From: Frateuria defendens
GTDB taxonomy: Bacteria > Pseudomonadota > Gammaproteobacteria > Xanthomonadales > Rhodanobacteraceae
Direction: 5' to 3'
Assembly (NCBI RefSeq): GCF_001182895.1
Contig: NZ_LFQR01000133.1
Span: 1-46,947 of the forward strand
DNA: 46,947 bases
Shown here piece after piece: positions 11,931 through 14,895 of the stretch. Numbering within the stretch: the stretch's first letter is position 1; the number at the start of each line of letters is the position of its first letter. Made by a program: the position numbers and the translations under genes. The notes beneath the pieces were generated by a model. It saw only the letters and a program-made list of their open reading frames with translations, ran no database searches and had not been told where the DNA came from.

Positions 11931-12178
11931 GGAGGCGGTGTTCGCGCGAGCGCAGAACATGCTTGCCTCACTGCGCTTGCTCATCGTTCCAGTGCAGGCC
12001 GGACAAGCGCACAGAACGTTCGAAGGATGGCCCCGCAGGGGCGAGCGAAGCGAGTCACCCGGTGCCGCATGTCTGGGTAGGGGACCCCTCGAAGAGCGAA
12101 GAGCTGGAAGAAAGAAAGCGCGCGCGGGATGGCCTTCTGCCGAGGGCTTTCACGGGATGACGTGGCGTGGAGCGGCGC

Positions 12179-12367
12179 TCAGTCCTTGTCGTCCTCCACC
12201 GGCGCCGACTGGCCGGGTTTCAGCCGCCCGTTCTTGCGCAGCGCCTCGCGCAGCACGTATTCGATCTGCGCGTTGAGGCTGCGCAGCTCGTCTTCGGACC
12301 AGCGCTGCATGGCTTCCAGCACGGCCGCGCTGATGCGCAGCGGGTAGGCTTTTTTCTCGGCCGCCAT
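12179..12367 (-). CDS. Small ribbon-helix-helix (Arc-like) DNA-binding protein
   Basis: Protein of 62 residues with an Arc/MetJ-type ribbon-helix-helix fold: the strand KKAYPLRIS (5-13), helix A (AAVLEAMQRWSEDE) and helix B (SLNAQIEYVLREALRKNG), then an acidic tail. Arc-like dimers bind DNA with the paired strand and often occupy tandem sites as tetramers. It is third in a minus-strand operon after the SPFH gene and a 23-residue peptide gene, 6 bp behind the latter. It may regulate the operon through the tandem GATATCAA sites at 13349-13367; that is inference. Confidence 0.85.
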   Translation of the reverse strand: MAAEKKAYPLRISAAVLEAMQRWSEDELRSLNAQIEYVLREALRKNGRLKPGQSAPVEDDKD

Positions 12368-12373
12368 GCGTAC

Positions 12374-12445
12374 TCAGTGGGCGCGGCGCCGACGCATCGC
12401 GGCGGCGATGATGGCGATGATCACGGCAACGGTTCCGGCGGTCAT
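12374..12445 (-). CDS. 23-residue single-pass membrane peptide
   Basis: Tiny gene, ATG to TGA, for a peptide with a short polar start (MTAGTV), about 11 hydrophobic residues rich in Ile/Val/Ala and a basic end (MRRRRAH). This fits a small membrane peptide with a positive-inside C-terminus. The ribosome site is the strongest in the neighbourhood: AAGGAGG 6 nt upstream, beginning right at the SPFH stop codon (12458-12460). The gene fits exactly between the SPFH and RHH genes (12-bp and 6-bp gaps). Function unknown; it might modulate the SPFH protein. A chance ORF with so good a Shine-Dalgarno and so exact a fit is unlikely. Confidence 0.7.
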   Translation of the reverse strand: MTAGTVAVIIAIIAAAMRRRRAH

Positions 12446-12457
12446 GCGCAGCCTCCT

Positions 12458-13318
12458 TCAGTGGTAGAGCGTGCCGGCGTTGACCACCGGCTGGGTGCTG
12501 CGGTCGCCGCACAGCACCACCAGCAGGTTGCTGACCATCGCCGCCTTGCGTTCCTCGTCCAGCTGCACCACGCCCTGCGCGCGCAACCGCTCCAGCGCCA
12601 TGCCGACCATGCCCACCGCGCCCTCCACGATGCGTTCGCGCGCGGCCACGATGGCGCCGGCCTGCTGGCGCTGCAGCATGGCCTGGGCGATCTCCTGCGC
12701 GTAGGCGAGGTGGCTGATGCGCGCCTCGATCACCTGCACGCCGGCCTTCTGCAACCGGGCCTGGATCTCGTCGCGCAGGTGGTCGTTGATCGCCTCGCCG
12801 TGGCTGCGCAGCGCGGGCAGGCCCTCGTCGCGGGCGTCGTAGGGGTAGCTCTGCGCCATCTGCCGCAACGCCGACTCGCTCTGGATGTGCACGAAGTTCT
12901 CGTAGTCGTCCACGCAGAACACCGCCTCGGCGCTGTCGAACACCTGCCACACCACCACCGCGGCGATCTCGATCGGGTTGCCGTCGCTGTCGTTCACCTT
13001 GAGCTTGCCGCTCTCGAAGTTGCGCACGCGCAGCGAGAGGCGCTGCTTGCTGTAGAACGGGTTGGTCCAGCGCAGGCCCTCCGCGCGGGCGGTGCCGGCG
13101 TACTTGCCGAACAGCTGCAGCACCTGGCCCTCGTTGGGCGCGACCTGGAAGAAGCCTTTTAGCGCGAAGCCGGCGAGGCCCAGCACGACCACGCCGGCGG
13201 CGAGGTGCCAGATGGCCTCGCCGGCGGTGATCACCAGCCACGCTCCCAATGCGGCCAACGCCAGGCAGGCCAGCACGAAAGGAATGCCGGGAATCGAAAA
13301 ACCGTTGCGCTCGTTCAT
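12458..13318 (-). CDS. SPFH/Band 7 domain membrane protein
   Basis: Protein of 286 residues. Two hydrophobic segments (about 10-32 and 36-54) precede an SPFH/prohibitin domain (about 57-230: [59 protein letters not shown]), then helical repeats rich in Arg/Glu/Ala ([21 protein letters not shown]). Such proteins scaffold membrane microdomains or control membrane proteases; no NfeD or protease partner gene is nearby. Start ATG 13318 has AGGGAGA upstream. It leads an operon with the 23-aa peptide and the RHH protein, behind a near-consensus sigma70 promoter. Confidence 0.93.
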
Positions 13319-13344
13319 GGTGTCCGTCTCCCTGAAGAGCGCAA

Positions 13345-13374
13345 ATTAGATATCAAAAAGATATCAATTTTCAA
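13345..13374 (-). promoter_or_regulatory. Sigma70-type promoter of the SPFH operon with tandem GATATCAA operator
   Basis: Reading the minus strand, TTGAAA (13374-13369) and TCTAAT (13350-13345) are separated by 18 bp; each differs from consensus at one position. The spacer holds two direct repeats, GATATCAA on the plus strand at 13349-13356 and 13360-13367, spaced 11 bp start to start. This is a strikingly AT-rich island in GC-rich DNA. A repressor bound there would block RNA polymerase; the operon's own ribbon-helix-helix protein is the obvious candidate. The leader before the start codon at 13318 would be only ~20 nt. Confidence 0.7.
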
Positions 13375-13383
13375 GTGCCGCTT

Positions 13384-14895
13384 TCAGGGGCCGGCGGCGC
13401 CGGCTCCGGAAGGCGCCGCGACGGCCGGCGCGGTGCCGAGGGTGTCCATCAGGTCCGCGCTGGGCGCGACGCGGTCGATGCGCAGGTTGCCGAACATCCG
13501 CGCCGCGGCGAAGAAGCGGGCCGGGTCGCCGTCGCCGACAGCCAGCGCGATGTGGGTGGCGTCGAAGCGGCGCAGGGCGGCGTCGTAGCTCTCCCAGCGC
13601 CCGTCCACCCAGGCCTGCACCCAGGCGTGCGGCACGAACACGCGCAGCACGCCGCTGTAGCGGTCGGCGTAGACCATGCCGCTGACCACGCGCGTGGGCA
13701 CGCCCGCGGCGCGGCCGAGCGCGGCGAGCAGCACGGCGTATTCGGTGCAGTCGCCCTTGCGGGTGCGCGCCACCTCCAGCGCGGAGGCGTAGCCGACGTC
13801 CAGGCCGTATTCGGTGATGTAGTCGCTGACGAAGCTGCGCAGCCGCCGCATGCGGTTGCGGTCGTCGCGCGCCTTGCCGGCGGCCTGGATCGCCAGCTGG
13901 CGGATCTCGGGGGCGTCGGACTGCAGCCAGTCGGTGGGCTGGCGGTCCAGCGCGGTGGGCGGCGATTCGCTGCCGCGCCGCGCATGGCCGATGTGCAGCA
14001 GCCACTGGCCGTCGCCCAGCGGCACCACCCGCTGCTCGTCGGTCGCCACGAACGGCTGCGGGAGGTCGCCGCGCACGTGCATGCGGTAGCTGAGCGGCAC
14101 GGCGCGCAGGTTGGGTGTGAGCGGGCGCGGCGAGCCGACCATCGCGGCGCGGAACATGTCCACCCGCTGCGTCGGCGCCTGCGCGCAGGCGCGGCTGCAG
14201 GCGAGCATCTCCAGCGGCTGGCCGACCATCGCCATGCGACCCTTGCGGGCGATGCCGCGATCGTCGAGCCACACTTCCACCGTCTGCATGCCGCCGGCCA
14301 GCATCAGATGCTGCCGCTGGTGGCTGAGCGTCTCGGGGCCGTCGGGCAGCGCGACCCGCTCTTCGCCCAGCACCTCGGTGTCCACCGTGACCACCTGCTG
14401 GCTGCCCGGGTCGAACTGGCGCACGCTGTAACGGGTGCCGGGGCGGCGGCCGGCGGCCTGCATGGCGCGGCGCAGGCCCTCGAACATCAGCGCGTCGGCG
14501 GGCAGGGCCAGTTCGGTGCTGCGCGACAGGCCGGCCACGCTGGTGGTGACCGCGAAGCGGCCCGGCGCGAGCAGCCGGCCTTCCGTGCTGTTGGCGGCGG
14601 CCGACAGTGTGTTGCTGGCGGCGAAGCCGCGCGGCGAGCCGTCCAGGCCCTCCACCGTGCGGCTCATGCTGCCGAGCCTGAGCGTGGTGCCGACGCGGTT
14701 GAGTTCGAGGATCAGCGTCTGGGTGGTGGTGACGGCGTCGCCTTCGCGCCGGCGCTCGATCTGGAGCGAGCCGATCTTGCGCCCGCTGAGCAGCACGCTC
14801 ATCCAGATCGTCTCGCTGTCCGGTTCGGCGGCGGGGGCGACCGGAGCGAGAGCGAGGCAGGCGAGCACCAGCAGCGTGGCGATCCGGCGAAGCAT
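13384..14895 (-). CDS. Secreted transglutaminase-like cysteine protein
   Basis: Exported protein of 503 residues. A signal peptide (1-~22) ends in APAA. The N-terminal two thirds form a strand-rich region without a recognised domain. The C-terminal part is a transglutaminase-like domain with a complete triad: Cys383 in [17 protein letters not shown], His423 in [10 protein letters not shown] and Asp438 in WESYDAA. In bacteria such domains act as peptidases or amide-bond enzymes; the substrate here is unknown. It is divergent from purT across ~109 bp. The start at 14895 is chosen because the signal peptide begins there. Confidence 0.88.

Follow-up and report, generated by a model that had tools for sequence, protein, structure and literature searches.

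Small membrane proteins encoded with larger partners

Single-span micropeptides encoded together with a larger protein, their membrane partner, form a kind already known. The cytochrome bd operons occur in different versions carrying different small proteins, CydX, CydY or CydZ, and the sequence of CydX is variable with few highly conserved residues, according to the available passages of PMC4325964; an alanine scan of CydX, as excerpted from PMC6005532, identified no single residue that is required. Similarly, KdpF is described in the accessible part of PMC3618439 as a membrane peptide of 30 residues whose gene is co-transcribed with kdpABC, the supposed partner genes.

A 23-codon open reading frame (ORF) lying between an SPFH gene and an Arc-like ribbon-helix-helix (RHH) gene can be set beside these systems. 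As far as those excerpts describe them, it resembles CydX, CydY and CydZ in being a short hydrophobic protein encoded beside a supposed large membrane partner, and KdpF in a gene order that would place it in one operon with a supposed partner gene, the operons themselves being unrelated. The tolerance of CydX to alanine substitution, as excerpted, would by analogy fit the loose, hydropathy-guarded evolution of the micropeptide. Unlike CydX, the micropeptide neighbours an SPFH protein and no oxidase, belongs to a family of 18-25 aa versus 37, ends in a basic C-terminus and runs straight into a repressor-like start. The micropeptide may thus work like accessory micropeptides of the CydX/KdpF type, an analogy for which no homology is claimed.

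NfeD is a membrane protein. In the available text of PMC2636767, which divides SPFH proteins into twelve subfamilies, it is encoded in one operon with SPFH1, SPFH2 and SPFH5 genes; the micropeptide is likewise encoded alongside an SPFH gene, its other neighbour, unlike in the NfeD operons as given there, being Arc-like. A search for an NfeD domain in the micropeptide and in five larger proteins that occupy the same slot in other loci gave no Pfam match at E 1.

Among the open-access literature matches listed, no paper dealt with the micropeptide or with an SPFH/Arc-like operon. PMC8656257 contains both 'SPFH' and 'ribbon-helix-helix', its available passages concerning SPFH proteins or detergent-resistant membranes, and PMC13086221, as far as its accessible text goes, is on SPFH proteins of Pseudomonas aeruginosa. 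A bacterial SPFH operon would gain a so far unrecognised micropeptide family.

The 23-codon gene and its neighbours

The window, meaning the whole stretch of DNA that was analysed (46,947 nt, Frateuria defendens contig NZ_LFQR01000133.1), contains the following features around the ORF.

12374..12445, minus strand: micropeptide gene, 23 codons, product MTAGTVAVIIAIIAAAMRRRRAH, with its ATG at 12445 and its TGA ending at 12374
12452..12458, minus strand: Shine-Dalgarno sequence AAGGAGG, which shares one base with the SPFH stop
12458..13318, minus strand: SPFH/Band_7 protein gene, 286 aa (PF01145, E=3.9e-26)
12179..12367, minus strand: Arc-like RHH gene, 62 aa, with a profile match to Arc
13349..13365, no strand assigned: GATATC-N5-GATATC, candidate operator, in the region 31-47 nt ahead of the SPFH start

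The gene order on the minus strand is SPFH, micropeptide, Arc-like RHH. The preliminary description had placed an AAGGAGG across the end of the SPFH gene, 6 nt ahead of an ATG, and every detail of this proved exact on the minus strand: the SPFH stop TGA occupies 12460-12458, its last base is the first A of AAGGAGG, and the spacer to the ATG at 12445 is CTGCGC, 6 nt. The pairing with the anti-Shine-Dalgarno sequence (duplex energy) predicted for this start is -11.7, and the median at random positions is -3.0. The 23-aa product has a best 17-residue Kyte-Doolittle mean of 2.31 and fits a protein of at most 50 aa with one hydrophobic span; neither the NCBIfam models (E 0.001) nor the Pfam models (E 1) gave a match to it. 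The remark in the preliminary description that automatic gene calling passes over such short genes would fit the usual default minimum of about 90 nt.

The SPFH protein scores 92.6 bits against PF01145, above the cut-off of 23.6, and shows two N-terminal hydrophobic stretches by eye; a search against PDB sequences returned no match at 1e-3. An identification as HflK was tried and rejected, since TIGR01933 gave 22.6 bits against a cut-off of 159.4. The start codon of the Arc-like gene lies 6 nt past the micropeptide stop and has no strong ribosome site. Profile A1 of the RHH proteins matches Arc repressor 1u9p with E=1.8e-7. PF03869 gives 19.0 bits on the Arc-like protein of the window, just under the cut-off of 20.4, and among relatives 22.7 bits on that of L070 (above) and 17.7 on that of L055 (below), while L097 is not among the matches listed. 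An AlphaFold model of the Arc-like monomer, one long helix with pLDDT 78.6 and pTM 0.43, is uninformative because a dimer is expected.

The overall reading, which we judge moderately probable, is of a membrane micropeptide encoded by a middle cistron, serving both as an accessory to SPFH and as a relay to the repressor. The SPFH, micropeptide and Arc-like repressor genes would form one operon read as one transcript. Ribosomes would load on the site placed over the SPFH stop codon, and the product would insert in the membrane with its basic C-terminus in the cytoplasm, most likely as an accessory subunit beside the SPFH membrane anchor. Ribosomes terminating on the micropeptide would re-initiate a few nucleotides on, at the repressor start, and the repressor would bind the twin GATATC site and turn the operon off.

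Distribution of the micropeptide

Of 299 genomes of the order, 254 gave SPFH matches, weak paralogues included. The loci analysed are part of those with SPFH matches; 235 had a match above 150 bits, L001-L005 and any weak SPFH paralogue scoring no more than 150 bits being omitted, and in 232 of these 235 SPFH has an RHH gene of the same strand no more than 1.5 kb away. Removal of seven duplicates, including the window itself (L228), reduced the 235 to 228 distinct SPFH loci; the host's own genus is represented by a single genome in the collection.

SPFH and RHH adjoin directly, at most 40 nt apart, in 119 of the 228 loci, the gap holds no membrane ORF by the filter in 38, and three lack RHH. 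A micropeptide-type ORF (18-25 residues, hydrophobic core, basic C-terminus) occupies the slot between the two genes in 27/228, mostly in Rhodanobacteraceae, a proportion that should not be read as a population frequency, as the sample is enriched in micropeptide-bearing genera. By origin, 22 of these loci belong to the host's family (f1) and three to a second family of the same order (f2), and the micropeptide is also carried by Rhodanobacter glycinis S10 (L036) and by an unclassified Pseudomonadota MAG (L047). Across the final 600 bases of the SPFH gene, f1 loci show full identity with named Rhodanobacter and Dyella records (L042 with L013, L039 with L174), by which f1, and with it the host, is most likely Rhodanobacteraceae. 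L113, which passes the ORF filter of the shuffle test, is kept out of the 27 on account of its different tail and spacing, whereas L169 fails that filter yet is counted; L237 is counted and is absent from the pN/pS, simulation, shuffle and codon-position tests.

The micropeptide occurs in 6/6 genomes of genus g3 and 4/4 of genus g19, and its presence is mixed in Rhodanobacter (g12). A FastTree phylogeny of 191 SPFH proteins, duplicates included, requires at least 13 changes, and because presence is so patchy the micropeptide is regarded as dispensable. The slots of L025, L187 and L167 resemble by eye eroded copies of the micropeptide and were left out of the counts. In two loci of Dyella type (L022 and L050), a similar-looking insert of ~240-250 nt separates SPFH and RHH and contains no membrane ORF by the filter; it looks like a repeat element.

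The slot is taken instead by a larger membrane ORF, 69-156 aa long, in 40 of the 228 loci (for example L037, L054, L206-L209, L216, L217 and L219), the class having been labelled 41 by the script before L073, with an ORF of 300 aa or more, was excluded. Three or four hydrophobic stretches are found in 37 of the 40, and none of five such proteins had a Pfam match above cut-off, DUF3784 giving 18.6 bits vs 28.1. The identical slot raises the idea that the micropeptide is a remnant of this larger protein of other lineages, and the C-terminal 40 residues of the larger ORFs do show a weak excess of similarity (3/60 shuffles equal or better). Against a remnant, their first 38 residues are no better than shuffled sequences (40/60 equal or better), the middle part behaves alike (42/60), and L246, placed in the larger-ORF class, holds in one slot a larger membrane ORF as well as a 39-aa micropeptide-like ORF ending in a basic tail; descent from the larger protein is accordingly considered very improbable.

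Evidence for a coded membrane peptide

The hydrophobic 23-residue peptide gene that had been proposed was confirmed as the ORF MTAGTVAVIIAIIAAAMRRRRAH, which we hold to be almost certainly a real gene, predicted to be translated into a single-span membrane micropeptide. Comparison with relatives, which the preliminary description had suggested as a check of frame conservation, showed that the frame, a near-constant length, the hydropathy and the basic tail are kept, and so is the ribosome site, with one clear exception. In 25 of the 27 loci the ORF has 23-25 codons; L162 has 20, and L155, cut down to 18 aa, has a membrane stretch that is weak. The first 12 residues are free of K, R, D and E in 26/27 peptides and the last eight contain at least two K/R in 27/27, these 27 rows including the duplicate L152 and leaving out L237. 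The ribosome site has a median of -8.4 across the 27 loci, and the exception, L169, is poor at -2.3.

Substitutions follow the reading frame. In seven pairs with each sequence used once, 28, 14 and 40 substitutions fell at codon positions 1, 2 and 3 (chi-square p=0.002), and 26/65 changed codons were synonymous in frame versus 15/62 and 6/64 in the shifted frames. Under a neutral model in which the observed substitutions were placed at random, nine pairs that share some sequences and clades were simulated 2000 times: 36 synonymous codons were observed vs 18.8 expected, the BLOSUM total was 687 vs 525, and the hydropathy change was 117.7 vs 240.7, about half, each of these being reached in 0/2000 simulations. 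Taken singly, 6/9 pairs fell below 0.05 for hydropathy and 5/9 for BLOSUM. Pooled pN/pS was 0.48, 0.50, 0.52 and 0.74 in four clades, and 0.85 for the window vs L032. These values correspond to purifying selection of moderate strength, comparable with the variable sequence of CydX; the frame and the hydropathy look to be under selection. RNA structure as the cause of conservation was not supported in the three loci scored (z-scores 1.31, -0.59 and 1.68).

Position-specific similarity across clades (15 representatives) was 33.2, whereas segment shuffles gave 24.5 (sd 0.8) and reached the observed value in 0/300, so the micropeptides are likely one family, although a common membrane-helix layout could contribute.

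An ORF arising by chance in a non-coding spacer was weighed as well, since the frame is very short and high GC lengthens chance ORFs. All pairs stayed open in 31% of simulations, so that an open frame on its own says little. Dinucleotide shuffles of the 27 gaps bearing the ORF produced one with a membrane stretch, a basic end and a ribosome site in only 1/5400, by a filter that was defined after the family had been seen. The same filter was passed by 27/44 real gaps of 60-200 nt, a count that includes the duplicate L152 and L113 and misses L169, and by 0/44 on the antisense strand. Together with the frame-specific substitutions and the recurrence in 27 loci, the shuffles leave chance a negligible probability.

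Readthrough of the SPFH stop codon, which would turn the ORF into a C-terminal extension of SPFH, is suggested by the window, where an offset of 12 nt puts the ORF in the SPFH frame. The offset from the SPFH stop to the ATG nevertheless falls in all three phases (11/12/4 among the 27 loci), and within genus g3 alone it ranges from 10 to 13 nt and covers all three, which excludes readthrough as a general mechanism; the ribosome site is also mostly kept, and such an extension is scarcely credible.

A possible partner of the micropeptide

The preserved hydropathy indicates that the micropeptide product itself is likely to matter. Because the micropeptide follows the SPFH gene throughout the SPFH-based sample, SPFH is the nearest candidate for a partner; gene order is the evidence that points to it, and we regard the chances that SPFH is indeed the partner as evenly poised.

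Stress-induced peptides and type I toxins likewise combine a short hydrophobic core with a basic end. The micropeptide could accordingly be a small stress- or toxin-like membrane peptide in its own right, riding in the operon with no contact with SPFH, and its patchy distribution would suit this. All 27 distinct copies are nevertheless located in the SPFH-RHH slot, in loci collected via SPFH, so that copies elsewhere would be invisible. Moreover, no Rfam match was obtained in 12000-13500, and an antisense ORF of like kind was found in none of the 44 gaps. An independent peptide appears improbable.

Probable passage of ribosomes to the Arc-like start

The predicted Arc-like start lies -1 to +8 nt past the micropeptide stop in 27/27 loci, and a strong ribosome site of its own (-6 or below) is present in 0/27. 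Such a site precedes RHH in 16/38 loci without a membrane ORF in the gap (Mann-Whitney p=5e-5 vs 0/27, a value that ignores relatedness, the 38-locus class mixing phyla and including L113 with its hydrophobic ORF and five loci from Streptomyces in which SPFH stop and RHH start probably overlap), and in 16/41 loci of the larger-ORF class as labelled by the script. It is found in 20/119 directly adjacent loci, so most of these are without one too.

In micropeptide loci, the distance from the SPFH stop to the Arc-like start, which is the whole gap, is about 70-105 nt. According to the accessible part of PMC10666635, a separation of about 20 nt all but abolished termination-reinitiation for six gene pairs in two other species. 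The closeness of stop and start and the lack of a strong repressor site, combined with this limit as excerpted and the length of the gap, lead to the reading that the micropeptide ORF also passes ribosomes to the repressor start by re-initiation, which we consider rather likely. A tiny cistron could then fit between two genes, seemingly without breaking translation of the second.

The same observations would serve a leader ORF in which translation of the codons is what counts, the peptide being a by-product. For a relay alone a membrane segment would be superfluous, yet hydropathy stays above the neutral level and charged residues are kept out of the first 12 positions in all peptides except one; furthermore, the ORF is absent from most sampled loci. 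A pure relay is thus unlikely, and a micropeptide that acts both as a membrane product and as a relay is preferred. An extension of this preferred reading, in which insertion of the nascent segment beside SPFH sets re-initiation on the repressor and the 23-codon relay becomes a sensor of membrane state, is a long shot; if true, the operon would read the membrane and set the dose of its own repressor.

The twin GATATC site and probable control of the operon

GATATC-N5-GATATC is present a single time in the 4.19 Mb genome, upstream of the SPFH gene, its half-sites lying 11 bp apart from start to start. The subsites of Arc have the same start-to-start spacing of 11 bp. The Arc repressor of phage P22 is the RHH sequence match to the neighbour protein; unlike P22 arc, the Arc-like gene is chromosomal and sits beside SPFH, and the likeness of the sites is one of spacing, half-site sequences aside.

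The exact pair occurs around or upstream of the SPFH start in 167/228 loci, GATATC pairs at other spacings (0-24) occur in none of the same 228, and elsewhere in the fetched loci the exact pair was met three times in 823,587 nt. It is present in 73/151 genomes of the order, and the reversed control pattern in 2/151 (G107 and G148). In the host's family, which supplies 25 of the 151 genomes, 21/25 possess the SPFH orthologue; the exact pair is present in 19 of the 21, always beside the SPFH gene; G022 and G090 have the orthologue and lack the exact pair, and the four genomes without the orthologue have the pair in none. Two genomes of this family, G046 and G130, contain a second copy elsewhere, and outside the family one copy may be found despite no strong SPFH match (for example G008, G026, G071 and G129).

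Judged from its sequence and placement, the twin GATATC is probably the operator of the Arc-like protein, for which it stands as a candidate, and the operon may be autoregulated by the Arc-like repressor. No terminator-like site was found in 12100-13450, which speaks for the operon reading; a sigma-70-like promoter was not found there either, and no promoter is claimed for this reason. The SPFH/Arc-like pair, found in several phyla, gains a handle in the form of candidates for operator and repressor and of a lineage-variable slot for membrane partners. Together with its twin site, the pair may prove worth more study than the peptide by itself.

Minor observations at the locus

DNA of the region has two further matches in its own genome, one in C305 and one in C189; the latter lies inside the span of a 363-aa ORF of L004, presumably DAHP-synthase-like as recognised by eye, and was taken as chance. 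In one Rhodanobacter genome (G334), the SPFH match is in pieces with an internal stop. The C-terminal tail of SPFH, QPVxNxGTLY (12461-12493 in the window), recurs by eye in slightly varied copies from Gammaproteobacteria to Streptomyces and is a possible docking motif.
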